Shown: positions 1,255 to 24,975 of the stretch, in pieces
Position numbering within the stretch: the stretch's first letter is position 1
How the letters are laid out: every line of letters starts with the position of its first letter
IMG/VR virus record: IMGVR_UViG_3300030333_007508
Location: 1 to 25,974 of that record
DNA from: a virus
Reading direction: 5' to 3' (one strand)
DNA: 25,974 bases
Program-made: the position numbers and the translations under genes
The notes under the pieces: generated by a model
Seen by the model: the letters and a program-made list of their open reading frames with translations, nothing else
What the model was told of the DNA's origin: nothing
Databases searched by the model: none

Positions 1255-1534
1255 GTTCTTCCCTCTCAATCCGCACTGACTCAGGTTGATATTGCTCGCG
1301 CCACTCTTGAAATGATATTTCTTGCTCTAAAGATAACTTCTCAGCATCAGTCAGGATCATGCCATCGTCCTCCACTAAGAGATATGACCCCCCTTCATTG
1401 CTTTCAGAGACTTCCCAGCCATACATGAATTCTGATTCATCTTCTTCATTCTTGGGCCGTCCCAGTTTTTCCTGCCAAAGCTCTCTGCTTCTTTCTTCGG
1501 CACCACTAATATTATTAAATTTTAAATATCTCAT
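1238..1534 (-). CDS. Small acidic hypothetical protein, 98 aa, after the adhesin gene
   Basis: This protein is rich in Glu and is not recognised. It starts MRYLKFNNISGAEERSREL and has a central acidic segment, with no membrane segment or signal peptide. Its ATG overlaps the stop of the adhesin gene at 1531-1534 (ATGA), implying translational coupling. A small protein encoded directly behind a fibre or adhesin gene is often a fibre assembly chaperone or adaptor, so that role is possible, but no family match supports it. Its 3' end carries the promoter of the glycosyltransferase gene. Confidence 0.7.
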   Translation of the reverse strand: MRYLKFNNISGAEERSRELWQEKLGRPKNEEDESEFMYGWEVSESNEGGSYLLVEDDGMILTDAEKLSLEQEISFQEWREQYQPESVRIEREELESMG

Positions 1535-2505
1535 GCGTAATCAACTTCGTTATATATTGCGATATTTTTCTCTAGTGCAAGTTGAATGTCATCACTTAAT
1601 GCGGCTGATCCCGCACTGGAATCGAAAACATAAACTTCTCTGATTATTCCATTAAAGGGATTGTTGTTTATTCTTCTGCAACCAATTCTAAATCTATCCG
1701 ATCTGCCAATGTGTTTGTCCTCGTTTACGTCTCTAGTAGTTTCAACCCCGTTTACTCTAACTATCATTGACTTGCCATCTCCACCTGATGCACTAGATCT
1801 TGCTCTGTCGTATCTCGCGCTAACTATTGTGCGCGTATCTGTGTCGTAACCAGTAGCAGTATCTTCGTCAAAAGAATCTACAGCTAACCTGTAAGCGGCA
1901 GTGCTTAAGTATATTAGTTCTGCTCCATCATTAAAATTATCTAAATTAGAAATAAGACCACCTGCCCCTGAAAAATTAAATACCTCGCCAACAAAAATCA
2001 TAGTAAAATCATCGTCACTATTAGGGAGCCTGTAATTGTTTACTTGTAAATAATCTCCAGACGCACTAAATCCCCCAGACGTAACACATTTAAGTCCTCT
2101 GTTAAACACTCCTGAAGAAATTAACTCAGGCTGTCTACTTGTAGTTGTTTGGACTGCATCTGGATCTTTATCAAAACCCGTCCAAGAACCTCCACCCGGC
2201 TGTGTGCTGCTATTACCACTTTGGTTATACCACTTAGTAACGAAAGCTGAGTCGCTCCCTACAAAAACTCTAAGAGTATCGCCAGAGCTAGTCATACTGC
2301 TAAGGGTCACCTCTTGTCTGTCGCCAAAATAAACATCTGCTTCTGTATTGTCAGAATCTCTTCTAACTCTAATAGCTGCACCAGTATATCCAGCGCGTAA
2401 TTTACGAAGGCCGTAAGCTAATCTAGCCGTAGGCACCTCCGCATTATCTAAAGGAGGCGGGACGTTTCTTCTTGTCGCCCCAGCAAGTGAAGGTCTTATA
2501 ATCAT
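1531..2505 (-). CDS. Tail-associated LamG / arabinofuranosidase-B-like adhesin
   Basis: A 324-aa protein. Residues about 28-60 (AYGLRKLRAGYTGAAIRVRR and on) plus WYNQSG (92-97) match the jelly-roll module seen in arabinofuranosidase-B-like and LamG-type phage structural proteins. Later landmarks are DNFNDGAELIY (189-199) and EDKHIGRSDRFRIG (262-275). This fold usually binds or trims polysaccharide; catalysis cannot be claimed from what is visible. It follows the large fibre gene with an ATGA overlap (2502-2505), so it is probably a tail-fibre component or receptor-binding subunit. The protein at 22503-23405 is a clear paralogue sharing all these landmarks, encoded on the opposite strand. Confidence 0.75.
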   Translation of the reverse strand: MIIRPSLAGATRRNVPPPLDNAEVPTARLAYGLRKLRAGYTGAAIRVRRDSDNTEADVYFGDRQEVTLSSMTSSGDTLRVFVGSDSAFVTKWYNQSGNSSTQPGGGSWTGFDKDPDAVQTTTSRQPELISSGVFNRGLKCVTSGGFSASGDYLQVNNYRLPNSDDDFTMIFVGEVFNFSGAGGLISNLDNFNDGAELIYLSTAAYRLAVDSFDEDTATGYDTDTRTIVSARYDRARSSASGGDGKSMIVRVNGVETTRDVNEDKHIGRSDRFRIGCRRINNNPFNGIIREVYVFDSSAGSAALSDDIQLALEKNIAIYNEVDYA

Positions 2506-5500
2506 ATTAAATTACCGAATACTGCATAACTATTGGATGCGATTCTAACTATAGAAGCTGGTTGATATCCAGATGCTAGAGTCACAGTGCCATTTGTCAC
2601 GCCATTAACAATCATACTACTGGAAGCCACAATGTCAACATCTGATGTTGAATGCATTACAGAACAGTTAAAGTCTGAACCTAAATCACTTGTTATTGAT
2701 ATTTGATCGAATGATGTAGATGTGCCATTTATAAATGAACCATTTTCAGCAGCAGCTAAAGTAAAGTCTGAACTTTTTTCGGATATGTGGAAACCTCCTT
2801 TTATAGCTCCTGAGACATGAAGTTTCGCAGCTGGATGACTTGAACCCACCCCAACATCACCTTGAACTATTAAGCCATTAGAAGGTGCGGAGATGCTTTG
2901 ATAACTTGTTCCTATATTTGCCTGACCGTAAACTCCAAGACTATTAGTGGCGCTATAAGTTCCAATCCCAACATTGCCAGCAACTATTAAACCTTGAGCT
3001 GGAGGAGATTGGCCAACCAAAGCAGTCCCGATAACCCCACTTCTCGCATATGAAATCCCTTCCACATGGAGTTTATGTGCAGCGTTGGGAGAGGCAGTCC
3101 CTATACCGATATTGCTATTTGAAGCTACTGTAAGTGCTGTAGTCCCTGCTGTAGAAAACGAGATTGTATCAGTGGCAAAATCAATACGGTTGTCTGTATC
3201 TCCATCATGGAAAATTGTATCCTGAAGATAGATACTACCGAAAGTCGGAGAACCACCCGGATTAACTGGAGTATAACCCAACGCATCTGTGACGTTGCTA
3301 GAGTTAATGCCAGTGATAAAGTCCGCGATGTCGTTATCGTTGAGTAAAGCCCCTGTTGTCGAAGGATCTACAGGAGTGTATCCCAAAGCACTAGTTACAT
3401 CGCTACTGCTTAAACCAGTAAAGCCAATTGAATCCCCAGACAAAAGATAAGGTAAACCATTCAATGTGATACGGCTACCCGCCCCGGTTCCCGCAACCTC
3501 GCCTGACACATAAAGTTTATGAGATGGATCTACTACTCCTATACCCACATTACCATTTGACAGAATAACCATCTGGTCTGCCAGTGCTGAACCATTATAA
3601 GTCCCAAAGGTAAGACTGTAGTTGCCGTTCTTCCCTTCGATGATCTGAGCGTCTCCTGCTCCCCATCTTACCCTGCTAGAAGAAGCAATCTCAATGTTGC
3701 TGGAAACTGTTACAGTTCCATTTACATCTAACGCGGAAGATGGATCGTGGGTTCCTATTCCGACTTTTTGGCTAAACAAGCCTGTGTATCCAGAGATGTC
3801 GCCTATTACTTCCAGCTTGGCTGTTGGATTAGTTGTTCCAATACCTACATTATTTGATTTAAAGGCTATTGTTTGGTAATTATCACCTGCTCCAGTTATT
3901 CCCACATATCCGTATTGACCAGTTAATGCTCCGTTACCATTATTAAATCCAACTATGGCGGCAGCTATTGCGTTCCCGACATTTATCTGAGTTTCATCAT
4001 TGACAGAACCCCCACCTATAAATTCAGCGACATAATTGAGTGCTGTGCCATCGTCATCTTTTACAGAGAACCTTCTTCTTGGGCTATCTGTTCCTATACC
4101 AACATTACCGTCATCATGAATTCTCATGGCTTCGGAATAAGACCCTCCACCTATGAATTTCAAAGCCCCAGCATAACTACCTCCGACAGATAAATCATTT
4201 GATGAATCAAGTTGAACAACAGTTCTTTCTGTGCCTCCAGAGTCTTTAAATCTGACTTGTTTATTATTATCTAATAAAATATGACCACCTGCTAGATGCA
4301 ATGACGCTGTTGTTGGTGTCACTGTATTAAACAATCCAGTCGCACCTGATATATATTGAGTGCTAGTTATGGAATCTGTAGTGCTAGCGCCCCGCGCCGT
4401 CACGGTTGCGAGAGTATCCGCTTCAGCCGAGAGTGGGGTGAACCCGAGAGCGTCTGTTACATTGCTAGAATTTATGCCTGTAATAAAATTCGCAATATCA
4501 TTATCGTTGACTAACGCGCCCGTAGTTGATGGATCGACGGGTGTATATCCGAGTGCGTTCGTAACATTGCTAGAGCTTAATCCGGTAAAGGTGTCATTGA
4601 AATCCCCAGACAAAAGATAAGGTAAACCATTTAGTGTAATTCGACTACCCGCTCCAGTTCCCGCCACCTCACCAGACACATAAAGTTTATGAGATGCATC
4701 TAAAACACCTATACCTACATTACCATCGGAGGAGACGGTTAGCCTCTTAGATCCATTCGTTTCTAAATGAATAGTATCTGTTTCAAAACTCAGCTTAGTG
4801 TTTTCGTCCCCTGCGTGTCTTACGTCAGTAGATATTTCTGCGCGACTTGCTACTATAGCAGCACTACTCTTAATATCACCGACAACTTGTAGAGGTTTAG
4901 AAGGATTATTTGTTCCTATACCTACCTGACCATCGTTATCTATTGTAAGCCTAGCATCTGAGCCAGCTTCTCTAATATTAAATCCATTACCATCTACGCC
5001 CAACAAGAAATCATTATTAGAATTAGCGTCAAATAAGATAGAGGGAAAATTACTACCATTTAATTTAATATTATTACCATAACCACCCGCATGACTATCT
5101 CCCGTGGCACTGACTGTTAAAGAAGAACTTACATCAGTTGTATTAATACCTATACCATCTTGGAATAATCCTGTTGTCCCAGAGATATGCGGCCCAGTAG
5201 AGATAATGGAGGTGGTTGTTGTGTTCCCTCGATCTGTAACAGCTTGAAGGGTGTCTGTTTCTGAAGTAGAAACTGCGTTCCCATTTATGAAAAGACCACT
5301 TGTTGATTCAACATAAACTCCATTTTCAAAATGCATACTTAATGCATTAGCTCCTGTGGAAAGAGCTTCAGTTGAAGATGCGTCCGAAAGAACAAATGCA
5401 CCACTATGTCCATTTTGGACTTTAGAATAATTACCAGCAACTAAAGCGTTGTCTGCTATTTGAATTTCATTGTGATTTCCAGCGAGAATAGCTGAAGACT

Positions 5501-8126
5501 CACCTGATAATCTGTTTTGTAATCCTCCTGCTACAAAACTGTATCTTCCTGAAAGAGTATTATTTCTTCCTCCTCCTATCACGCTATAAACTGACGCTTC
5601 ATCTAACTTATTACCATATCCACCCACAATCACCCCGCCATCTGATCCGCTTAATATATGATTGCGAGCACCACCGCCAACAAACCCAAAGTTTGAATCG
5701 GTAATTATTCCTGAATAACCTCCTGCGATGGCAGAGACTAAACCTCCAGACTCAATTAAATTGTTGAACCCTCCCCCAATAAATGCAGCCTTAGTAGAAT
5801 AAATATCATTATTATATCCTCCCACACTAGAAGAGTAATTAGATCCAGTTATACAGTGTCCTGATCCCCCACCGATGAAACCAAAATCACCTCCATCAAT
5901 GTCATTGATAGCTCCACCCCCAATAAAATCAAAATCACCAGAAATCACATGTCCACTTCCCGCTATAATAACAGAGCCAGTAGAATACACATTAGAGTCG
6001 GTGGCTGATATTACCGCCTTATCATAAGCGACCTCAAATGGAGCGTTGCTAGTAGGTGTAGTTTTTCCGAAAACTATTTTCGGCAAATCAGCGTAGCTTT
6101 GCTCACCAGCCTTTGTATTAAAAACTAATTTTTCACTACCAGCATTCTGCATCCTAAATGCCGCTTCACGGGCAGAACTTAATTCAGCTTTTATAGCATC
6201 TGCCCCAGCAGAATCTTTGATTGTTAATGACCCCTGATCATTACTGTCAACTTCAGCCACGTATTTTGCTGCATCTCCAGCAGCATTATAAAGTTTAGAA
6301 AAGCCTCTGTTGTTTCCATCGCTACCTTCTTCAGTGCTTAAAGTTCCATCTGAAGCAAAAGTTTTGGTTTCACCTGTGACATGCAAATCACCACTCAAAG
6401 AAATATTGTCTTTTATCCTCGCTCTTTCCGTTCCTGCTGTAAACCAAGTGATTGTGTCATCAGAAGGGAAACCAAAATAAGTATTAGTGTCCCCTTGGTG
6501 TTCAATAAAGCTATTAATTTGGATTACACTGCTGCCACCCATTATAAGGTTTGTGGTAGCGGTGTTACCCTCTGTAAGAGTTTGCTCTATTGTGCAACAT
6601 GATGAAGATCCACCTCCACCTCCACCTTCTCCTGAAATCAGGTAAATGTTACCGAACATGTCGGTCATTCTGCCGCTCACACCAGAACCAGAATAACTGT
6701 TAGCGAACATAGTTCCTCCCCCTTGACCGTCATCAACATTTAAATCGTTGCCTAAAGCGTAGAAAGCTTCTTTCCCCTGAGGAATGCTAGCCAGTCGGAA
6801 ATTTTCTCCTCCAATTAAAAAATCTTGTGTATCTATTCCAACTTTGCTAGCTGTCCTAAGTTTTATAAATAAATCTTTATCGAGGTCGATATGGGACTGA
6901 TTGTAATTACCAAAATCATTAGCATATAATCTTATATGTTGGCCTTGCGTTTGATCCAACGGAAAGGTGCCAAGAAAATTACCTTGATCTAAAATATCTA
7001 AATTGCTTCCTGTATTTGAAGCATAAACACCTACTGTATCATATACCGTAGTGCCAGGGACTTGATCAAAGAAAAGTTGTAAATCAATATAACCAGATAC
7101 CCCACTGTGGTTTAATTGCTGTTGACTAAAACCTCTTTGGGCAGCTTGTGCATCAGCTAGAGAACCAATAGCTCCTGTGTTTAAAGTTTGGTTCCCTGTA
7201 GATTCGTTGAGTTGAAGTCCTCCTGATGTTGTCGCATAGACTTTTTCTATACTTAAAGTGTTACCATAAAGAAGAAAGTCTGAAATATGACTATTGCCAT
7301 CTGTATTTAAAACCTCAGTCCTTATCCCGAAGTTTCTAGTGTAGCTACCAAATACGCCTATATTATCAGTTTTGCTAAAAGTAAAAGCGGGAGAAGTAGA
7401 AATTCTATAATTAGAGGAAACAACATTTCCTTCTATATCTAATATACTAGTTTTTATACTCTCAATAAAATTATCAGCTTCTACGGCAGCGGCGTTCGTT
7501 AATATTCTTCCCTCTCTGCCGACAACAGAATTGATAATAGTTACAGTGCTAGCAGTATATACTCCACTTCCCGTAGGGATTTCATTAAGATTCCCACTAT
7601 TGATTGGGAAATTTATTTGGAACTCATTAATATCCTTAGTCTTAAATGGCCCCTCGTAAAAACCACTTGTAGAAAAATCGCCAACTGTTGATCCTATACC
7701 TACTTTACCAGTTACAGATGATCCAACAACTCCTTCTTTTTTGTATTCGGCGTAAAGTGCTCCGCTGAAATCAGTGTTTTTGGGTAGGCTATAAAAATTA
7801 TTTAAATCATTTGTCCCTATCCCCAAGAAACCTGTTGCTTCAGCCCTGATGTCTCCCATAGGAGTATTTCCCCCCAGCACAGTTCCTGTCGAATTATAAA
7901 AATATGTAGGGCTTACAAAGTTACCTGTTAGTGTTTCAGGCATCGCTTGGCCCGAAGCCACTACATTTAAGAATCTTACTGAGTCCCATCCACTAGCTAC
8001 TGCTGTGGACCTCCATCTACCCCCCACTCCCGTTGCTGCTAACGCATTTGTGTAAGCTTTTCTAAAAACCACAGATGCTCCATCATGAGCAGCCACTGAT
8101 AATACATTGTAACCTGTGTCCGACAT
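2502..8126 (-). CDS. Large repeat-rich tail fibre, 1874 aa
   Basis: A very long fibre protein. It contains roughly eleven copies of a VGIGTxxPxxKLxVxG-type repeat, typical of trimeric phage fibres and of proteins that carry an intramolecular chaperone. Around residue 505 there is a flexible Gly/Ser hinge ending in CC. Residues about 712-919 form GGG/GGY-x-N repeats resembling a YadA-type left-handed beta-roll head. Further on, ALGYTPVDPSTTGAL modules occur twice (the second halves differ), encoded by diverged DNA repeats at about 3275-3555 and 4435-4725. The C-terminus lacks the peptidase-S74 autochaperone often attached to such fibres. It lies directly downstream of the J-like gene, so it likely forms the side or central fibre for receptor contact. 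Low-complexity repeats make host-range variation by recombination likely. Confidence 0.85.
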   Translation of the reverse strand: MSDTGYNVLSVAAHDGASVVFRKAYTNALAATGVGGRWRSTAVASGWDSVRFLNVVASGQAMPETLTGNFVSPTYFYNSTGTVLGGNTPMGDIRAEATGFLGIGTNDLNNFYSLPKNTDFSGALYAEYKKEGVVGSSVTGKVGIGSTVGDFSTSGFYEGPFKTKDINEFQINFPINSGNLNEIPTGSGVYTASTVTIINSVVGREGRILTNAAAVEADNFIESIKTSILDIEGNVVSSNYRISTSPAFTFSKTDNIGVFGSYTRNFGIRTEVLNTDGNSHISDFLLYGNTLSIEKVYATTSGGLQLNESTGNQTLNTGAIGSLADAQAAQRGFSQQQLNHSGVSGYIDLQLFFDQVPGTTVYDTVGVYASNTGSNLDILDQGNFLGTFPLDQTQGQHIRLYANDFGNYNQSHIDLDKDLFIKLRTASKVGIDTQDFLIGGENFRLASIPQGKEAFYALGNDLNVDDGQGGGTMFANSYSGSGVSGRMTDMFGNIYLISGEGGGGGGSSSCCTIEQTLTEGNTATTNLIMGGSSVIQINSFIEHQGDTNTYFGFPSDDTITWFTAGTERARIKDNISLSGDLHVTGETKTFASDGTLSTEEGSDGNNRGFSKLYNAAGDAAKYVAEVDSNDQGSLTIKDSAGADAIKAELSSAREAAFRMQNAGSEKLVFNTKAGEQSYADLPKIVFGKTTPTSNAPFEVAYDKAVISATDSNVYSTGSVIIAGSGHVISGDFDFIGGGAINDIDGGDFGFIGGGSGHCITGSNYSSSVGGYNNDIYSTKAAFIGGGFNNLIESGGLVSAIAGGYSGIITDSNFGFVGGGARNHILSGSDGGVIVGGYGNKLDEASVYSVIGGGRNNTLSGRYSFVAGGLQNRLSGESSAILAGNHNEIQIADNALVAGNYSKVQNGHSGAFVLSDASSTEALSTGANALSMHFENGVYVESTSGLFINGNAVSTSETDTLQAVTDRGNTTTTSIISTGPHISGTTGLFQDGIGINTTDVSSSLTVSATGDSHAGGYGNNIKLNGSNFPSILFDANSNNDFLLGVDGNGFNIREAGSDARLTIDNDGQVGIGTNNPSKPLQVVGDIKSSAAIVASRAEISTDVRHAGDENTKLSFETDTIHLETNGSKRLTVSSDGNVGIGVLDASHKLYVSGEVAGTGAGSRITLNGLPYLLSGDFNDTFTGLSSSNVTNALGYTPVDPSTTGALVNDNDIANFITGINSSNVTDALGFTPLSAEADTLATVTARGASTTDSITSTQYISGATGLFNTVTPTTASLHLAGGHILLDNNKQVRFKDSGGTERTVVQLDSSNDLSVGGSYAGALKFIGGGSYSEAMRIHDDGNVGIGTDSPRRRFSVKDDDGTALNYVAEFIGGGSVNDETQINVGNAIAAAIVGFNNGNGALTGQYGYVGITGAGDNYQTIAFKSNNVGIGTTNPTAKLEVIGDISGYTGLFSQKVGIGTHDPSSALDVNGTVTVSSNIEIASSSRVRWGAGDAQIIEGKNGNYSLTFGTYNGSALADQMVILSNGNVGIGVVDPSHKLYVSGEVAGTGAGSRITLNGLPYLLSGDSIGFTGLSSSDVTSALGYTPVDPSTTGALLNDNDIADFITGINSSNVTDALGYTPVNPGGSPTFGSIYLQDTIFHDGDTDNRIDFATDTISFSTAGTTALTVASNSNIGIGTASPNAAHKLHVEGISYARSGVIGTALVGQSPPAQGLIVAGNVGIGTYSATNSLGVYGQANIGTSYQSISAPSNGLIVQGDVGVGSSHPAAKLHVSGAIKGGFHISEKSSDFTLAAAENGSFINGTSTSFDQISITSDLGSDFNCSVMHSTSDVDIVASSSMIVNGVTNGTVTLASGYQPASIVRIASNSYAVFGNLI
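3275..3555. repeat. Intragenic fibre repeat, copy 1
   Basis: This segment of the fibre gene encodes NLGxxLYVSGEVAGTGAGSR-like and ALGYTPVDPSTTGALLND-like sequence and is closely matched by 4435-4725. The best-conserved core is 3431-3530 against 4601-4700, where the encoded protein is nearly identical but many third positions differ. That fits an old duplication under protein-level selection. Confidence 0.8.
4435..4725. repeat. Intragenic fibre repeat, copy 2
   Basis: This is the partner of the 3275-3555 repeat, offset by about 1170 bp. One codon differs in length between the copies (SFNDTFTGL-like here against SIGFTGL there). It encodes the same KLYVSGEVAGTGAGSR and ALGYTPVDPSTTGAL modules in the fibre shaft. 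Confidence 0.8.
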
Positions 8127-17465: not shown

Positions 17466-17493
17466 TTGACAAAAATTTCCCACTCACTAAAAT
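17466..17493 (+). promoter_or_regulatory. Sigma70-like promoter of the outer-membrane protein gene, leaderless geometry
   Basis: A perfect TTGACA (17466-17471), a 16-bp spacer and TAAAAT (17488-17493) end 8 bp before the ATG at 17502. Transcription is expected to start at or within 1-2 bases of the start codon. It begins 13 bp after the stop of the lipoprotein gene. Confidence 0.65.
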
Positions 17494-17501
17494 ACATAAA
17501 T

Positions 17502-18191
17502 ATGAAGACACTACTGTTTAGTCTCGTAACACTGTTGGGCGTTACTCTTGGTAACGCAGGTATTAGCGCTGTAGATCTTGCAGAAAACATTTCTGTGGAT
17601 GCTAGCGTTTCTTACAGCAATCTTTCCACTAGTGGCGGCTTGGCTGTCAGGGAGGATTCTTTGGGTTACTCCGTGCTTCTTGGCACTTCGTTTGAAGGTG
17701 GGGTTGCTTCGGTTGGCGTTGATATCTACGATGCTGACGGAGGAACTGACACTGACCTTTCGATTTCTTGGGCGCGTCCAGTAACTATTCTGGGGCAATC
17801 TCTTGAAGCAGAGATTTATCTCCAACAAATCGAATCTTCTTACGGAGGTTGGGAGGAAGCTGGTCTTGGTCTGACCTATTCTAATGAATGGGCAGATGTA
17901 ACTGCTACTTTCTGGCATGAACTAGGGACTGATGCTTCTTATGGAGTTGAAATCACTGTTTCCCGTGACTTTACTGTTCCTGTAGAGAATCTTACCGTTA
18001 GTCCATTCGTTGCTGTAAATATTGCTAACGATTATAATGCAGTAGAGGTGGGGGTTTCTGCTGATTATGATTTCGGTAATAATCTTTCTGTAGGTGCAAA
18101 AGTTTCTTATAACCACAATGATGTAGATGGTTCTGCCTATGCTCTCGATAACGATTGGGTTGTAGGTGCAGGGTTTAACTACAAATTCTGA
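17502..18191 (+). CDS. Outer-membrane beta-barrel protein, moron-like
   Basis: From the ATG at 17502 the 229-aa protein has a clear Sec signal peptide (MKTLLFSLVTLLGVTLGNAG, cleavage near the NAGISA region). It is followed by alternating polar/hydrophobic strands with glycine and aromatic residues and a C-terminal NYKF, the terminal Phe recognised by the BAM machinery. This indicates a small barrel, perhaps 10-12 strands. I chose this ATG over the in-frame codon at 17466, which lies inside the promoter. The gene has its own promoter (17466-17493) and a strong terminator (18219-18246), so it is a self-contained unit between the spanin genes and the holin. That layout is typical of moron genes such as lom or bor of lambdoid phages, which alter the host surface. 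Possible jobs are superinfection exclusion or altered permeability. Confidence 0.78.
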   Translation: MKTLLFSLVTLLGVTLGNAGISAVDLAENISVDASVSYSNLSTSGGLAVREDSLGYSVLLGTSFEGGVASVGVDIYDADGGTDTDLSISWARPVTILGQSLEAEIYLQQIESSYGGWEEAGLGLTYSNEWADVTATFWHELGTDASYGVEITVSRDFTVPVENLTVSPFVAVNIANDYNAVEVGVSADYDFGNNLSVGAKVSYNHNDVDGSAYALDNDWVVGAGFNYKF

Positions 18192-19813: not shown

Positions 19814-19841
19814 TTGACACTAGAGGTCGTATCTCTATTAT
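19814..19841 (+). promoter_or_regulatory. Sigma70-like promoter of the MazG-PPase operon, leaderless geometry
   Basis: A perfect TTGACA (19814-19819), a 16-bp spacer and TATTAT (19836-19841) end 8 bp before the ATG at 19850. The layout is identical to the promoter at 17466-17493. It begins 7 bp after the endolysin stop. Confidence 0.65.
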
Positions 19842-19849
19842 TGGTTTTG

Positions 19850-20353
19850 ATGAAAGACAAAGCGATCAAAATCCGCAAAAAAGATCTCTATGAATATATC
19901 ATTGGGGAAGCTGGTTATCATCCCATTGAGGTGGCTCTTGATGAAAATTACTTATTCAATGAACGGTATGAAATTTTTGATGCCTTCATTTATGACTGTG
20001 CTTTAAAAAAGAAAATTGTTCAAGGTGTTGATTATATTAACTTTGTTAAAGAAGTAGACAAATTGAGACAAATGAAATTGAGCGGCAAGGACATCAGTAA
20101 AAGAGAGACTATTTCCATGTGCATAGAGTTATATGAGATCGCTCCTAAAACTGTTTTAATTGATGACAGTTCAGTATTAGATCTTCCTGATCTCCCTACG
20201 CCAAACGCCCAAAAAATCAAAGAAGTATTTGGTCTAGAAGATATAGATACTTCGAAGTTTGCTGATTTTAAAATGACTGAAGAGGATCATGCTTTACAAG
20301 AATACGAAAAACAAAAAAAAGAACTATTCGAAGGGCTTGAAGAAAATGAGTAA
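19850..20353 (+). CDS. Hypothetical protein, first gene of the MazG-PPase operon
   Basis: From the ATG at 19850 the product is 167 aa (MKDKAIKIRKKDLYEYI), mostly helical with many Lys/Glu, and it ends in an acidic coiled-coil-like tail (EEDHALQEYEKQKKELFEG). It is not recognised. An upstream in-frame codon at 19811 would put the start inside the promoter and is rejected. Its 3' end overlaps the MazG start by 8 bp, so translation is probably coupled with the nucleotide-pool genes that follow. The helical, charged character would suit a protein-protein interaction role; this is inference. Confidence 0.72.
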   Translation: MKDKAIKIRKKDLYEYIIGEAGYHPIEVALDENYLFNERYEIFDAFIYDCALKKKIVQGVDYINFVKEVDKLRQMKLSGKDISKRETISMCIELYEIAPKTVLIDDSSVLDLPDLPTPNAQKIKEVFGLEDIDTSKFADFKMTEEDHALQEYEKQKKELFEGLEENE

Positions 20354-20714
20354 ATTTTTAGAATTAGAAAGCAACGTAATCCGTTGGGCGCAAGAACGAG
20401 GCATCTTTGATAGGGGGGATGCCTTGGCTCAGTTAGACAAGACAGAGGAAGAGCTTGACGAAACAATCAATGCTGTAAAAGCTTTGGAGAACTGGGAGTG
20501 GGCAATTCAGGCTGACCCAAAAAATGTTAACCCCGAAACAATAAAGTCTTTGAAGAACGAGGTCGCTGATGGCATTGGTGATATGCTGGTGACGATCATT
20601 ATCGCGGCTGAAATGCTTAATCTTCAGATTCTTGATTGTTTACAGTTAGCTTACGATGAGATCAAAGACAGAACAGGTAAAATGGTTGATGGCCAATTCG
20701 TTAAAGACAAATGA
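20346..20714 (+). CDS. MazG-type nucleoside triphosphate pyrophosphohydrolase
   Basis: A 122-aa all-alpha NTP pyrophosphatase. The metal-binding residues are visible as EExxxE (E35, E36, E39 in KTEEELDET) and ExxD (E72, D75, with D79 nearby, in NEVADGIGD). The ending RTGKMVDGQFVKDK is typical of phage MazG proteins. The enzyme converts (d)NTP to (d)NMP and pyrophosphate. Phage MazG proteins have been linked to nucleotide recycling or to dampening ppGpp. The ATG at 20346 overlaps the upstream gene by 8 bp. Its partner gene two ORFs downstream encodes pyrophosphatase, which would remove the pyrophosphate product. Confidence 0.88.
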   Translation: MSKFLELESNVIRWAQERGIFDRGDALAQLDKTEEELDETINAVKALENWEWAIQADPKNVNPETIKSLKNEVADGIGDMLVTIIIAAEMLNLQILDCLQLAYDEIKDRTGKMVDGQFVKDK

Positions 20715-20851
20715 AAAAGAAATCAGGAAGTTCCTACGAGGAAAAGAAAAAAAAGAGTTATAAAGGATTTAATTCTAGAAAAAAAACTTCTTTCAACAAG
20801 AATAGTAAACACTATAAGAAGAAGTATAGGGGCCAAGGTAAAATTAAGTGA
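20711..20851 (+). CDS. 46-aa lysine-rich basic peptide between MazG and PPase
   Basis: A short frame with ATGA overlap to the MazG stop (20711-20714) and GTGA overlap to the PPase start (20848-20851), so it sits exactly in the coupled chain. It contains 17 Lys and 2 Arg in 46 residues with only 2 Glu, plus several Tyr and Ser, and is likely disordered and nucleic-acid binding. It begins MKKKSGSSYEEKKKKSYK. No family is recognised. The double overlap is the main support for it being a real gene. Confidence 0.65.
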   Translation: MKKKSGSSYEEKKKKSYKGFNSRKKTSFNKNSKHYKKKYRGQGKIK

Positions 20852-21375
20852 ACCTAGTTAATGACATTCCTATTACCGTTGACGATTTCGAGCATGTAAG
20901 CTGCATCGTAGAAATCCCTAAGGATACTAATACAAAATACGAATACAACGAAAGATTAAATATCTTTGAGTTAGATAGGTGTTTAGTATCCTCTTTACAA
21001 TACCCAATAAACTACGGCTTCATTACTCAAACCTTAGCGTTAGATAATGATCCTTTAGATGTTCTGATTTTCAATCATGATCCCATCGACAGGGCTAGTC
21101 TAGTCAGGTGTAGGGTGATGGGTGTGTTGGGTTTCGAAGATGGCGGTAAGATAGACAACAAGGTCATTGCCGTTCCCCATTGGTCTCCTCAAGAAAAATA
21201 TTCTAAACTTGGCGACATCGAATCCTCACACCTAAAAATATTTAGGCAGTTTTTTAAAATATATAAAATAGATCGCAACTCAGAAACTAAAGTGGGAGAG
21301 TGGAGATGCGCTAATACTGCTTTAAAAACAGTAAAAGAGTCACATCGTAGATGGGTAAACGGAGCTTGGAATTAA
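20848..21375 (+). CDS. ppa: Inorganic pyrophosphatase, family I
   Basis: A 175-aa soluble pyrophosphatase. Essentially every active-site residue of E. coli Ppa has a counterpart: E22, K30, E32, R44, Y52, Y56, the signature DNDPLDV with D66/D68/D71, then D98, D103, K105 and Y139-K140. It hydrolyses pyrophosphate to two phosphates with Mg2+. The start is GTG at 20848, overlapping the stop of the basic peptide. Phages rarely carry this enzyme. Beside MazG it would pull NTP hydrolysis forward, and it would also help DNA synthesis by removing pyrophosphate. Confidence 0.93.
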   Translation: MNLVNDIPITVDDFEHVSCIVEIPKDTNTKYEYNERLNIFELDRCLVSSLQYPINYGFITQTLALDNDPLDVLIFNHDPIDRASLVRCRVMGVLGFEDGGKIDNKVIAVPHWSPQEKYSKLGDIESSHLKIFRQFFKIYKIDRNSETKVGEWRCANTALKTVKESHRRWVNGAWN

Positions 21376-21383
21376 AAATTATG

Positions 21384-21411
21384 TTGAAATCCTATAAAAA
21401 GTGTAAATAAT
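21384..21411 (+). promoter_or_regulatory. Promoter region before the small membrane protein
   Basis: Two readings overlap. TTGAAA (21384-21389), a 16-bp spacer and AATAAT (21406-21411) form a sigma70-like promoter. GTGTAAATA (21401-21409) is a copy of the recurring motif. Here the ATG at 21432 is about 20 bp further on, so unlike the other sites a short leader would exist. Confidence 0.4.
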
Positions 21412-21431
21412 AGTAACAACAAATAAATATC

Positions 21432-21620
21432 ATGGATGTCATTTTACAATTATTTCAGGATAACCCTTGGTTTGGCGTAGTAGCAGCGGCTATCGCTTTT
21501 GCTTCTGCCATTACTGCTGCTACCCCTACCCCTAAAAAGGGTAGCTTTTGGGCTAAGGTTTATGGGATTATCGACTGGGCTGCTCTGAACATTGGAAAAG
21601 CCAAAGATAAAGGAGAATAA
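21432..21620 (+). CDS. Small membrane protein, 62 aa
   Basis: One hydrophobic segment (about 13-29, WFGVVAAAIAFASAITAAT) is followed by PTPKKGSFWAKVYGIIDWAALNIGKAKDK. Short proteins of this shape are common in marine and enteric phage genomes, often near lysis genes, without a proven role. It stands alone between a promoter region and a terminator. A holin-like or membrane-associated late function is possible. Confidence 0.75.
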   Translation: MDVILQLFQDNPWFGVVAAAIAFASAITAATPTPKKGSFWAKVYGIIDWAALNIGKAKDKGE

Positions 21621-21640: not shown

Positions 21641-21671
21641 AACCTCCGTCCCCTGTGGTCGGGGGTTTTTT
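21641..21671 (+). terminator. Rho-independent terminator after the small membrane protein
   Basis: AACCTCCG (21641-21648) pairs with CGGGGGTT (21660-21667), including one T-G wobble, around an 11-base loop. A T-run to 21671 follows. The next promoter's -35 starts two bases later, at 21673. Confidence 0.8.
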
Positions 21672-21672
21672 C

Positions 21673-21700
21673 TTGCAATAGGGAACCCAATAGATATAAT
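21673..21700 (+). promoter_or_regulatory. Sigma70-like promoter of the PD-(D/E)XK-like gene, near-leaderless
   Basis: TTGCAA (21673-21678), a 16-bp spacer and a perfect TATAAT (21695-21700) end 6 bp before the ATG at 21707, or 9 bp before the tandem ATG at 21710. It follows a terminator directly. Confidence 0.6.
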
Positions 21701-21706
21701 AAGCGT

Positions 21707-22240
21707 ATGATGTCAGATAAGGCACGGGGCTTGTCAGGCTCTAAGCATGTAGCCCACACTCAGAAACTAATGGATGAGTCTACTGAAAGGTATCAACATT
21801 CATGCCTTTCTGCTACGTTGAGCATAAAAAAAGCTACAAAAAAACAAGACATAGGCCATGTTGACTTTGTAGTAGAGGGTGAGACAGTAGATTTAAAAGG
21901 ATTAAAAAACTCTACCCGAGAAGGTAAGATCCTTCTGGAATTTCTAAATGTCGCTGGCAAGACAGGTTGGTGCAATGAAAACGGAACTCCCTTATGGATA
22001 GCCTTTGATTTCGGGGCTTTCTTTCTACATGTTAAAAATATTGATTTGTATAACCTAGCAAAAGAAAAATGTAATTTACGTGATACAGTTGGTCGAGTTG
22101 ACTCCTGTCTATATAAAGGTTATCGCCGTAAAGGGAGAAAAGATTTAATGTCTATGGTAACTCTTAAAGATGTTTTAGAAAATTGCGAACATTGGTTTTT
22201 ACCATACGCAAAATATCAAATACCTATTGAAGAACTTTAA
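21707..22240 (+). CDS. PD-(D/E)XK-like nuclease-fold phage protein
   Basis: A 177-aa protein. The segment IGHVDFVVEGETVDLKGLK has D53 and then D62-x-K64 on consecutive strands, the arrangement of a PD-(D/E)XK active site. The following LLEFLNVAGKTGW (E78) and LWIAFDFG strands fit the rest of the core. Related small phage proteins with a VDxKG motif occur in many tailed phages and are of unknown function. A role in recombination, packaging or host-DNA breakdown is possible. There are two tandem ATG codons; the second (21710) would place the start nearer the predicted transcription start. No signal peptide or TM is present. Confidence 0.55.
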   Translation: MMSDKARGLSGSKHVAHTQKLMDESTERYQHSCLSATLSIKKATKKQDIGHVDFVVEGETVDLKGLKNSTREGKILLEFLNVAGKTGWCNENGTPLWIAFDFGAFFLHVKNIDLYNLAKEKCNLRDTVGRVDSCLYKGYRRKGRKDLMSMVTLKDVLENCEHWFLPYAKYQIPIEEL

Positions 22241-22254: not shown

Positions 22255-22503
22255 ATGTCTAGTCCTCAACAATTACTCATGGAGCAAAACGGAGTCCCAG
22301 GTGGTCAATACGTTATAGATGATGGCACACTTGTTACGGGGGAGTGGTTTGCTGTTCAAGCGATTGAAGCTACAACTATAGAGGGGCTTACTACTTGCAA
22401 TATCAGCGATATTTCAGGTTGTGTTATCCCTGCTGGATCTACAATTTTTGGTAATTTTACTGTGGTTAACTGCTCTGGTAAAGCTATTCTTTATAATGTA
22501 TAA
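22255..22503 (+). CDS. Small beta-rich hypothetical protein, 82 aa
   Basis: This protein is not recognised by family. After a polar N-terminus (MSSPQQLLMEQNGVPGGQYV) it is beta-rich, ending IPAGSTIFGNFTVVNCSGKAILYNV. That ending resembles short phage proteins placed next to fibre or decoration genes. Three cysteines (in TCNISD, SGCVIP and NCSG) are noticeable for such a short protein. Its stop overlaps the start of the adhesin paralogue (TAATG at 22501-22505), so it is likely a co-translated structural partner of that protein. Confidence 0.65.
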   Translation: MSSPQQLLMEQNGVPGGQYVIDDGTLVTGEWFAVQAIEATTIEGLTTCNISDISGCVIPAGSTIFGNFTVVNCSGKAILYNV

Positions 22504-23405
22504 TGCTTAAGCTAGGGCAAAACTTAGGGACTCACGCCACACCTAAAGCGGGATTCCCTTTAGACGAGATTTCTGTAGCTCCTCAGGGTGCATGGGGGTT
22601 AAGAAGATTATCTTCTTCTTATACTGGCCCCGCCCTTATTTCCAACAGCACTAGTGGTTACACCGCTACCATTTATTTTGACTCTAACGGTGAAGTAAGT
22701 TTAAATAGTCCTACAAGCCAAGCTGATTACCCAACATTGAAAGACTGGGCTTTTAACGAGGGGGATGGGAATCTTTGGGTCAGCACTTGGTATGATCAGT
22801 CAGGTGGAACGGCTCGTAATGCGACTCAGACTATCGCAGGTGACATGCCGATGCTTGTTAATGCAGGAGTTTTGGTAAAACAAGGGAGCCTTCTCTTTGC
22901 TGATGATTATTTTAAGGTTTTAAATTATGCATTCCCTAACCCTAATGATAGCTGCACTATTTTAGCTGTCGCTCGCCCCACAAATTCAGACGCAATGGGA
23001 ATCGTTACGGACATCGAGAATTTCAACGATGGGGTGGAATTAATTTATGCTAGCAATAGCTGGGATTGGCGTATTAAAAATACAGATTTAAATAATAACC
23101 CAATAGATCCAAACATAAATGGTAAAGTCCAATTAGCCATTGCCCTCTACGATACAAGCTTAGGTTCCAATCAATCAAAACTTTTTGTTAATGGCACAGT
23201 AGTATCCAAGGATTGCACAGAAGACAAACATGTGGCTAGCACCGATAGGTTCAGAATCGGAGCCAGAATAACGACAAGCAATCAAATGGATGGCAATATC
23301 TCTGAAGCTATGATTTGGGACTCAGCTTTATCTGATTCCAATATCCAAAAACTTCAGAATAATATCTTTATTCACTACTCCATTCCCAAAGGTTCCGCAG
23401 GTTAA
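22503..23405 (+). CDS. LamG / arabinofuranosidase-B-like adhesin, paralogue of 1531-2505
   Basis: A 300-aa protein sharing a series of landmarks with the protein at 1531-2505: WGLRRLSSSYTGPAL (31-45), WYDQSGG (96-102), ENFNDGVELIY (172-182) and EDKHVASTDRFRIGAR (240-255). The same order and spacing point to common descent. The fold is the jelly-roll of glycan-binding phage structural proteins. An extra N-terminal ~25 residues replace the Pro-rich start of the other copy. It is translated with the small protein 22255-22503. It probably is a second virion adhesin or head/tail decoration. It lies on the strand opposite to the main tail operon, so it may be expressed at another time. Confidence 0.75.
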   Translation: MLKLGQNLGTHATPKAGFPLDEISVAPQGAWGLRRLSSSYTGPALISNSTSGYTATIYFDSNGEVSLNSPTSQADYPTLKDWAFNEGDGNLWVSTWYDQSGGTARNATQTIAGDMPMLVNAGVLVKQGSLLFADDYFKVLNYAFPNPNDSCTILAVARPTNSDAMGIVTDIENFNDGVELIYASNSWDWRIKNTDLNNNPIDPNINGKVQLAIALYDTSLGSNQSKLFVNGTVVSKDCTEDKHVASTDRFRIGARITTSNQMDGNISEAMIWDSALSDSNIQKLQNNIFIHYSIPKGSAG

Positions 23406-23921: not shown

Positions 23922-24430
23922 TGGCTACAATACATGTAAGTAGATGGAATCATAATATTGGCTTGTCTGACCCCAAGTATTCCCTTATCTTAAGAGATAA
24001 TAAAATAAGTAAAAAGATTTTAAGTCTATTAAAAATAAAATCTGAAAACGATAATTTAGTTTTTCCTTTCTTTTCTTTGTTGAATCCAAATAATATTATC
24101 GGAGCTTACAGAGCCAAGTCAAATAAAAGAGAAGAATACAAAGGGTTAAAGGGTTGTGCTAACGATTATCTTTATCCCCTTTGTGTCCCTAATGTTGAAT
24201 TAGACCACAGCAAAACTCTTAACCTTGTTAAGTCCCCTCTAGCTGTAGCTAAATATTTGAGTGATGACAGAAATGCTATAGCATATTGTCGGCAGGATAA
24301 AGTATCCGATAGCTTAATTGAGTATATTGTTAATAATAATATTAAGGAAATAAACTGCGTAGGTTTCAAGAGGAAATATATTATAGAGTATAAGCTCAGT
24401 GAATACGGACACGATTGCTTGATAACATAA
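23921..24430 (+). CDS. Hypothetical protein, 169 aa
   Basis: This protein is not recognised. It is rich in Lys/Asn/Ile with a conserved-looking middle (GLKGCANDYLYPLCVPNVE) and a C-terminal beta-type stretch (INCVGFKRKYIIEYKL). Four cysteines occur, two of them in the middle segment. There is no TM segment. It is coupled to both neighbours by TAATG overlaps (23919-23923 and 24428-24432) and has no SD. Being next to the Nmad1-like gene suggests a role in nucleotide metabolism, but there is no motif evidence. Confidence 0.7.
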   Translation: MATIHVSRWNHNIGLSDPKYSLILRDNKISKKILSLLKIKSENDNLVFPFFSLLNPNNIIGAYRAKSNKREEYKGLKGCANDYLYPLCVPNVELDHSKTLNLVKSPLAVAKYLSDDRNAIAYCRQDKVSDSLIEYIVNNNIKEINCVGFKRKYIIEYKLSEYGHDCLIT

Positions 24431-24900
24431 TGAATACAAAAGAACTACTCCAACTACATGATGAAACCTGCAAGGCTTGCAGGATAATCATGGAAAAGAA
24501 AAACAGTGATTATACTGGAGGGAAAAACGCCACAGACATATTCGCTAATTTTAATGCATCTAAGATACTGGACATTCATCCTGTGCAGGGTTTGCTCCTC
24601 CGTGTAATCGACAAAATAAAAAGAATCTATTCATTCACCAACGATAGAGAACTTTCTGTCCCAGATGAAACTGTAGAAGATGCTTGCGATGACATAGTAA
24701 ACTACGCTATCTTAGCCAAGGCGATGCTTCTAAAGGAGAGGCGAGGACCAACGAGACAATTGACTGAAGAGCAAGAACTTGAAGGAGAAAAACGTATTGA
24801 TATCATTGGGCGTAACGGTAACGAAGGTCTTCATTACTCCCAGATCGAACAGGATTCTCCAAATAAAGAAACCTACCCATCTGATATCGGGTGTGACTAG
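24430..24900 (+). CDS. Nucleotide-modification-associated domain 1 (Nmad1/DUF1599)-like protein
   Basis: A 156-aa protein. The pattern KKNSDYTGG, FANFNASKIL, LLLRVIDKIKRI and then DETVEDACDDIVNYAILAKAML is that of the DUF1599 / Nmad1 family. This family is related to MazG-like all-alpha pyrophosphohydrolases and is predicted to act on modified nucleotides in phages. The last ~40 residues are polar and look disordered. The ATG at 24430 shares bases with the previous stop. The TAG stop ends at 24900, whose G is also the first base of the tRNA. Substrate cannot be told from sequence. Confidence 0.7.
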   Translation: MNTKELLQLHDETCKACRIIMEKKNSDYTGGKNATDIFANFNASKILDIHPVQGLLLRVIDKIKRIYSFTNDRELSVPDETVEDACDDIVNYAILAKAMLLKERRGPTRQLTEEQELEGEKRIDIIGRNGNEGLHYSQIEQDSPNKETYPSDIGCD

Positions 24901-24975
24901 GCGGGATAGCCCAATGGCAGAGGCAAGCGACTTAAAATCGCTAAAGTGTGGGTTCGAATCCCACTCCCGCTACCA
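24900..24975 (+). tRNA. tRNA with UAA anticodon (Leu UUA), class-I short variable loop
   Basis: A 76-nt cloverleaf is complete: acceptor stem 24900-24906 with 24965-24971 (first pair G-U), D stem 24909-24911 with 24922-24924, anticodon stem 24926-24930 with 24938-24942, loop CTTAAAA with anticodon TAA (24933-24935), T arm 24948-24964 and an encoded CCA at 24973-24975. The variable loop is only 5 nt (24943-24947), whereas bacterial leucine tRNAs normally carry a long variable arm. Its first base is the last base of the upstream stop codon. UUA is a common leucine codon in this AT-rich sequence. It would supply that codon if charged with leucine. Confidence 0.9.

Follow-up and report, generated by a model that had tools for sequence, protein, structure and literature searches.

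The window, a stretch of 25,974 bases taken from an IMG/VR virus record, encodes a family I soluble inorganic pyrophosphatase (PPase) in a short operon that also carries a MazG-like gene. The reading that we find fairly probable is that this is a real phage enzyme, added as a single gene to an older array, which clears the pyrophosphate (PPi) of phage nucleic-acid synthesis and does not form a dedicated pair with MazG. The window phage is an uncultured, siphovirus-type phage from a lineage without isolates. Searches of INPHARED returned no capsid relative and only remote terminase matches, and no host was found through a provirus or isolate in cellular contigs or INPHARED. The window has a tail gene cluster on the minus strand, with lambda-J-like and minor tail proteins. 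It also encodes a MipA-like outer-membrane β-barrel protein (PF06629, 26.6 bits, cut-off 24.2), which is conserved in 44 loci and suggests a Gram-negative host. Other observations include a virion-structural-like protein (phrog_10356) present twice in the window and found in 44 loci, a tRNA-Leu(TAA) gene lying between DUF1599 and pyrimidine-dimer-glycosylase-like genes, which was the only Rfam hit, and, in a close relative (L095-L096, record G001, ~37.6-50.2 kb), a run of glycosyltransferase-, NeuB-, and nucleotide-sugar-like genes, read by eye except for NeuB (PF03102, 6e-69), the only clear profile match of two tested.

The window operon and its two enzymes

The first-pass annotation had described an overlapping operon containing MazG and PPase, and all four open reading frames and their overlaps were confirmed (Table 1). 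HEAD and the MazG-like gene share 8 nt (ATGAGTAA), MazG and SMALL share 4 nt (ATGA), and SMALL and PPase share 4 nt (GTGA), downstream of one strong promoter-like site; MazG and PPase are probably co-transcribed in the window phage. In many relatives the start of PPase overlaps, or lies directly against, the gene before it, and because it overlaps the preceding stop codon in so many of them, the overlaps are not special to MazG and PPase. Stop-start overlaps between the genes of a phage operon are thus weak evidence of functional pairing.

Table 1. Features of the window discussed in the text
Feature	Position	Strand	Remarks
phrog_10356 virion-structural-like gene	1531-2505	-	
MipA-like gene	17466-18191		
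Holin-like gene	18270	+	
201-aa gene	18584	+	
CHAP endolysin	19186	+	
Promoter-like site, sigma-70-like	19814..19841	+	TTGACA-N16-TATTAT; 11/12 consensus match
HEAD	19850-20353	+	167 aa, ATG start
MazG-like nucleoside triphosphate pyrophosphohydrolase	20346-20714	+	122 aa
SMALL	20711-20851	+	46 aa, very basic (Lys/Arg-rich)
PPase, family I soluble inorganic pyrophosphatase	20848-21375	+	175 aa, GTG start
Promoter-like site upstream of k2	21384..21411	+	TTGAAA-N16-AATAAT; consensus match
k2	21432-21620	+	62 aa
Intrinsic terminator-like hairpin after k2	21648..21672	+	5 G-C pair stem, then T run
Promoter-like site	21673-21707		
177-aa gene	21707	+	
phrog_10356 virion-structural-like gene	22503-23405	+	
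DUF1599 gene	24415-24900		
tRNA-Leu(TAA)	24900-24975		
Pyrimidine-dimer-glycosylase-like gene	24948		

The −10 hexamer of the promoter-like site and the HEAD start codon are 8 nt apart, and the HEAD transcript is likely leaderless. A TTGACA and a −10-like hexamer occupy the equivalent place in loci L002, L004, L198, L199, and L352, and in several more distant relatives a −10-like hexamer adjoins the HEAD start codon. The promoter-like stretch upstream of k2 is also present in L198, L199, and L352, which lack PPase, where it comes immediately after the stop codon of SMALL; the hairpin and T run after k2 recur in L199 and L352. At a further promoter-like site, the −10 hexamer ends 6 nt before the 177-aa gene. 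The placement of such sites near start codons (19814-19849, 21384-21431, and 21673-21707) suggests that leaderless transcripts are a habit of the lineage.

The PPase matches Pfam PF00719 with an E-value of 3.7e-44 and a score of 150.7 bits (curated cut-off 23.5), and it matches 63 distinct PDB sequences, the closest solved relatives being plant and bacterial PPases. With the Salmonella enzyme as reference, all 14 active-site residues checked (E20, K29, E31, R43, Y51, Y55, D65, D67, D70, D97, D102, K104, Y141, and K142 in E. coli numbering; E98 is variable and was excluded from the count) are present, bearing out the earlier statement that every catalytic residue is kept, and the same 14 are intact in 81 of 81 aligned viral PPases (the window and 80 others). 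The gene is under purifying selection, with a median pairwise dN/dS of 0.09 over 262 close pairs. Judged by its sequence, the protein is probably an active, phage-encoded family I enzyme. Its flanks are viral, with lysis genes upstream and the virion-structural-like and pyrimidine-dimer-glycosylase-like phage genes downstream. The first-pass annotation called phage PPases rare, which holds for isolates, where INPHARED gave 10 matches, all below 39% identity and several lying on bacterial contigs, but not for uncultured phages, with relatives in at least 90 IMG/VR viral contigs (80 retained, 72-97% identity). Two INPHARED entries, AFYI01000007.1 and AGRM01000005.1, are 501-kb Salmonella contigs and the source of some of these "phage" matches. 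A PHROG search with PPase returned no family match, and a search of cellular contigs returned cellular PPases only, at 34-37% identity. All viral PPases form one clade in a tree against a thin sample of 13 bacterial sequences.

The MazG-like protein matches phrog_715 (E 1.5e-25) and scores 15.5 bits against Pfam MazG, under the cut-off of 22. The metal-binding ExxE ... ExxD residues (E35, E36, E39, E72, D75, and D79) are invariant in 19 homologues, as part of an invariant motif, K32-T33-x-E35-E36-xx-E39 ... E72-xx-D75-xxx-D79, that is accompanied by RTGKMVxGQFV. An AF2 model is all-helical (pLDDT 91), and its best PDB neighbors are the MazG-family proteins DR2231 and dCTPases, with a high probability of up to 0.97 but a weak E-value of 0.1. 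For most pairs of close copies dN/dS is ~0.14-0.20; it is 0.07-0.10 for L004 against L199 and L198 and ~0.36 between L199 and L198, which are nearly identical. MazG looks intact and under purifying selection.

Entry of PPase into an older array

When DNA from the window and L002, which carry PPase, is aligned with the PPase-less L198, L199, and L352, PPase stands out as a single extra block, with the end of SMALL on one side and the conserved GTTGAAAT... leader of k2 on the other; the downstream border of the insertion is the promoter-like stretch that precedes k2. L352 also lacks MazG, and HEAD there leads directly into SMALL; in L198 an additional block separates MazG from SMALL. This comparison shows a clean gain of PPase, by itself, at the junction of SMALL and k2. 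The HEAD-MazG-SMALL-k2 array, which comes after lysis genes and was found without PPase in ~30 loci recovered through MazG, is older than the arrival of PPase. The sequence and position of SMALL are conserved whether or not a locus has MazG or PPase. The k2 protein has one hydrophobic stretch and 19 invariant columns in its alignment, with relatives in at least 571 viral contigs and none in INPHARED.

HEAD stands out as a conserved protein without a recognized fold. Its conserved domain is the first ~100 aa, with 15 invariant columns across 20 homologues, and the acidic C-terminal part of ~65 aa is specific to the window's subclade. Nothing scored over the cut-off in Pfam, PHROG gave no match, and INPHARED held no homologue; the attempt to assign a function from fold was dropped because searches of PDB and BFVD gave no match. 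The earlier suggestion that HEAD belongs to the same system stands to the extent that HEAD shares an old array with MazG, but the MazG-PPase unit to which it was to belong is unsupported. We speculate, tentatively and with more doubt than belief, that HEAD-MazG-SMALL-k2 may be an undescribed and widespread phage module, in which HEAD, as a new fold or family, would act on nucleotides together with MazG, and PPase would be a plug-in that substitutes for MazG or complements it, the two tending to exclude each other in the slot.

Three genomic contexts are seen for PPase itself, and in most cases MazG is absent. The commonest (context A) is the slot between HEAD and k2 after the lysis genes, where the gene directly upstream of PPase varies among HEAD, SMALL, c24, a glycosyltransferase gene, and a SET-domain gene; an HNH-family gene (c22) lies between MazG and SMALL in L003 and L004. 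One HEAD-PPase slot, in L022, contains a gene (c99, 4251-5510) for a 419-aa protein with tandem VGIGSTS repeats. In context B (L048, L057, L059, L065, and L066), PPase follows DUF1599. The idea that DUF1599 is a hidden MazG relative was rejected, with a profile comparison probability of 0.2%, for which the DUF1599 side comprised only four close sequences, and no PDB match. Context C (L064 and L068-L081) includes nine loci with enough flanking sequence, and eight of these have nrdB upstream of PPase on the same strand, at a distance of 2.8-4.4 kb; thyX is ~1.3 kb upstream in three (L069-L071). This neighborhood points to DNA precursor supply.

Association with MazG and the role of PPase

The first-pass annotation had proposed that MazG and PPase could work as a coupled module, PPase pulling NTP or dNTP pyrophosphohydrolysis to completion to recycle or deplete nucleotides. 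The chemistry of the two is complementary, and the conversion of PPi to phosphate by PPase is a sound biochemical reading, both enzymes being intact by sequence; the genes adjoin and overlap in the window, L002, and L388, and breakdown of dGTP and dCTP by phage MazG is published from in vitro work (PMC6850273). The conserved linkage expected in related phages did not emerge when slots were collected with HEAD or k2 as baits and neither enzyme was used. The 94 complete HEAD-to-k2 slots comprised 6 with both genes, 15 with MazG only, 41 with PPase only, and 32 with neither, so that most PPase slots lack MazG, and co-occurrence was not above chance (6 versus 10.5 expected; odds ratio 0.31, p 0.046). 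De-duplication at 90% identity left 5, 10, 19, and 17 slots, respectively (both genes, 5 versus 7.1 expected; odds ratio 0.45, p 0.23). A pooled table adding loci found through MazG or PPase was set aside as biased by its baits. A PF00719 search of whole MazG-found records recovered PPase in 0 of 50, a set that excludes loci already known to carry both genes. Conversely, 13 of 49 PPase-found records contain phrog_715, with MazG mostly 1.5-4.6 kb from PPase; the records are mostly fragments, and absence of MazG applies to the sequenced part of the genome. In the tree, the MazG-adjacent PPases (window, L002, L003, and L004) form one clade of four (99/94) inside the single viral clade, which confines the adjacency to one small group. 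Six capsid-found records of at least 70 kb, of which two carry both genes and four neither, give a small hint of co-occurrence at the level of the genome. The slot contingency test rejects a conserved module, and a coupled function is in our view distinctly unlikely; MazG and PPase are separately inserted and lost neighbors, not a dedicated enzyme pair. Degradation of ppGpp by the window MazG, also raised earlier, is unlikely because purified cyanophage MazG, which prefers dGTP and dCTP, neither binds nor cleaves (p)ppGpp (PMC6850273). The two-gene story is in any case now testable.

We favor instead the reading in which PPase would hydrolyze the PPi that phage DNA and RNA synthesis generates, together with MazG-derived PPi where MazG is present. 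Removal of PPi would drive polymerization forward and would give phosphate back to the cell, and co-transcription with MazG in the window would be a matter of position. The location of PPase beside lysis genes suggests late expression, which is a poorer fit with DNA replication. Return of phosphate could also be the main purpose. PPase would then be kept as an auxiliary gene for phosphorus supply where water is poor in P, a role of the kind suggested for ppa of soil phages. Phage ppa has been published as a P-acquisition gene whose expressed products hydrolyze PPi (PMC10987575), and phage mazG rises under phosphate limitation, for which a model of nucleotide-phosphate recycling was proposed (PMC10976474), but the nrdB and thyX neighborhood of context C fits replication better, and we regard scavenging as the main role as unlikely. 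That PPase is simply a passenger hitch-hiking in a gene-exchange hot spot is highly improbable. The HEAD-to-k2 slot does take HNH, glycosyltransferase, SET-domain, and other genes, but the selection data argue strongly against this reading, as the median dN/dS is low, the active site is conserved in every viral PPase aligned, and the gene is retained in three different contexts. The retention of an intact PPase in three settings by an isolate-less lineage suggests that PPi removal or phosphate return is worth a gene to these phages.

Comparison with known systems

Published work already describes phage PPases with activity and a phage MazG that spares ppGpp; a literature search turned up no pairing of MazG with PPase in phages. 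The window MazG resembles that of cyanophage S-PM2 in being a small phage MazG-like pyrophosphohydrolase (PMC6850273; PMC10976474), but S-PM2 mazG adjoins DNA polymerase and primase, whereas the window gene sits in the HEAD-MazG-SMALL-k2 array after the lysis genes. It also matches the profile of the PHROG 715 MazG-like pyrophosphatases of Cellulophaga and Flavobacterium phages and LUZ100, at 39-45% identity, although the searches made found neither HEAD nor k2 in those phages. The PPase belongs to the same fold family as cellular family I PPases (Salmonella and E. coli Ppa; Chitinophagaceae) and has the 14 active-site residues of Salmonella Ppa, but the viral proteins are only ~34-37% identical to the cellular ones and make up a separate clade when compared with the few bacterial sequences sampled. 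A further parallel is soil phage ppa (PMC10987575), which likewise places a family I soluble PPase with conserved active residues on a phage contig. One soil enzyme was shown to be active, whereas the window PPase is known from sequence, as a member of a conserved clade with fixed neighborhoods in an isolate-less, siphovirus-type lineage, one subclade of which has PPase and MazG in one operon.
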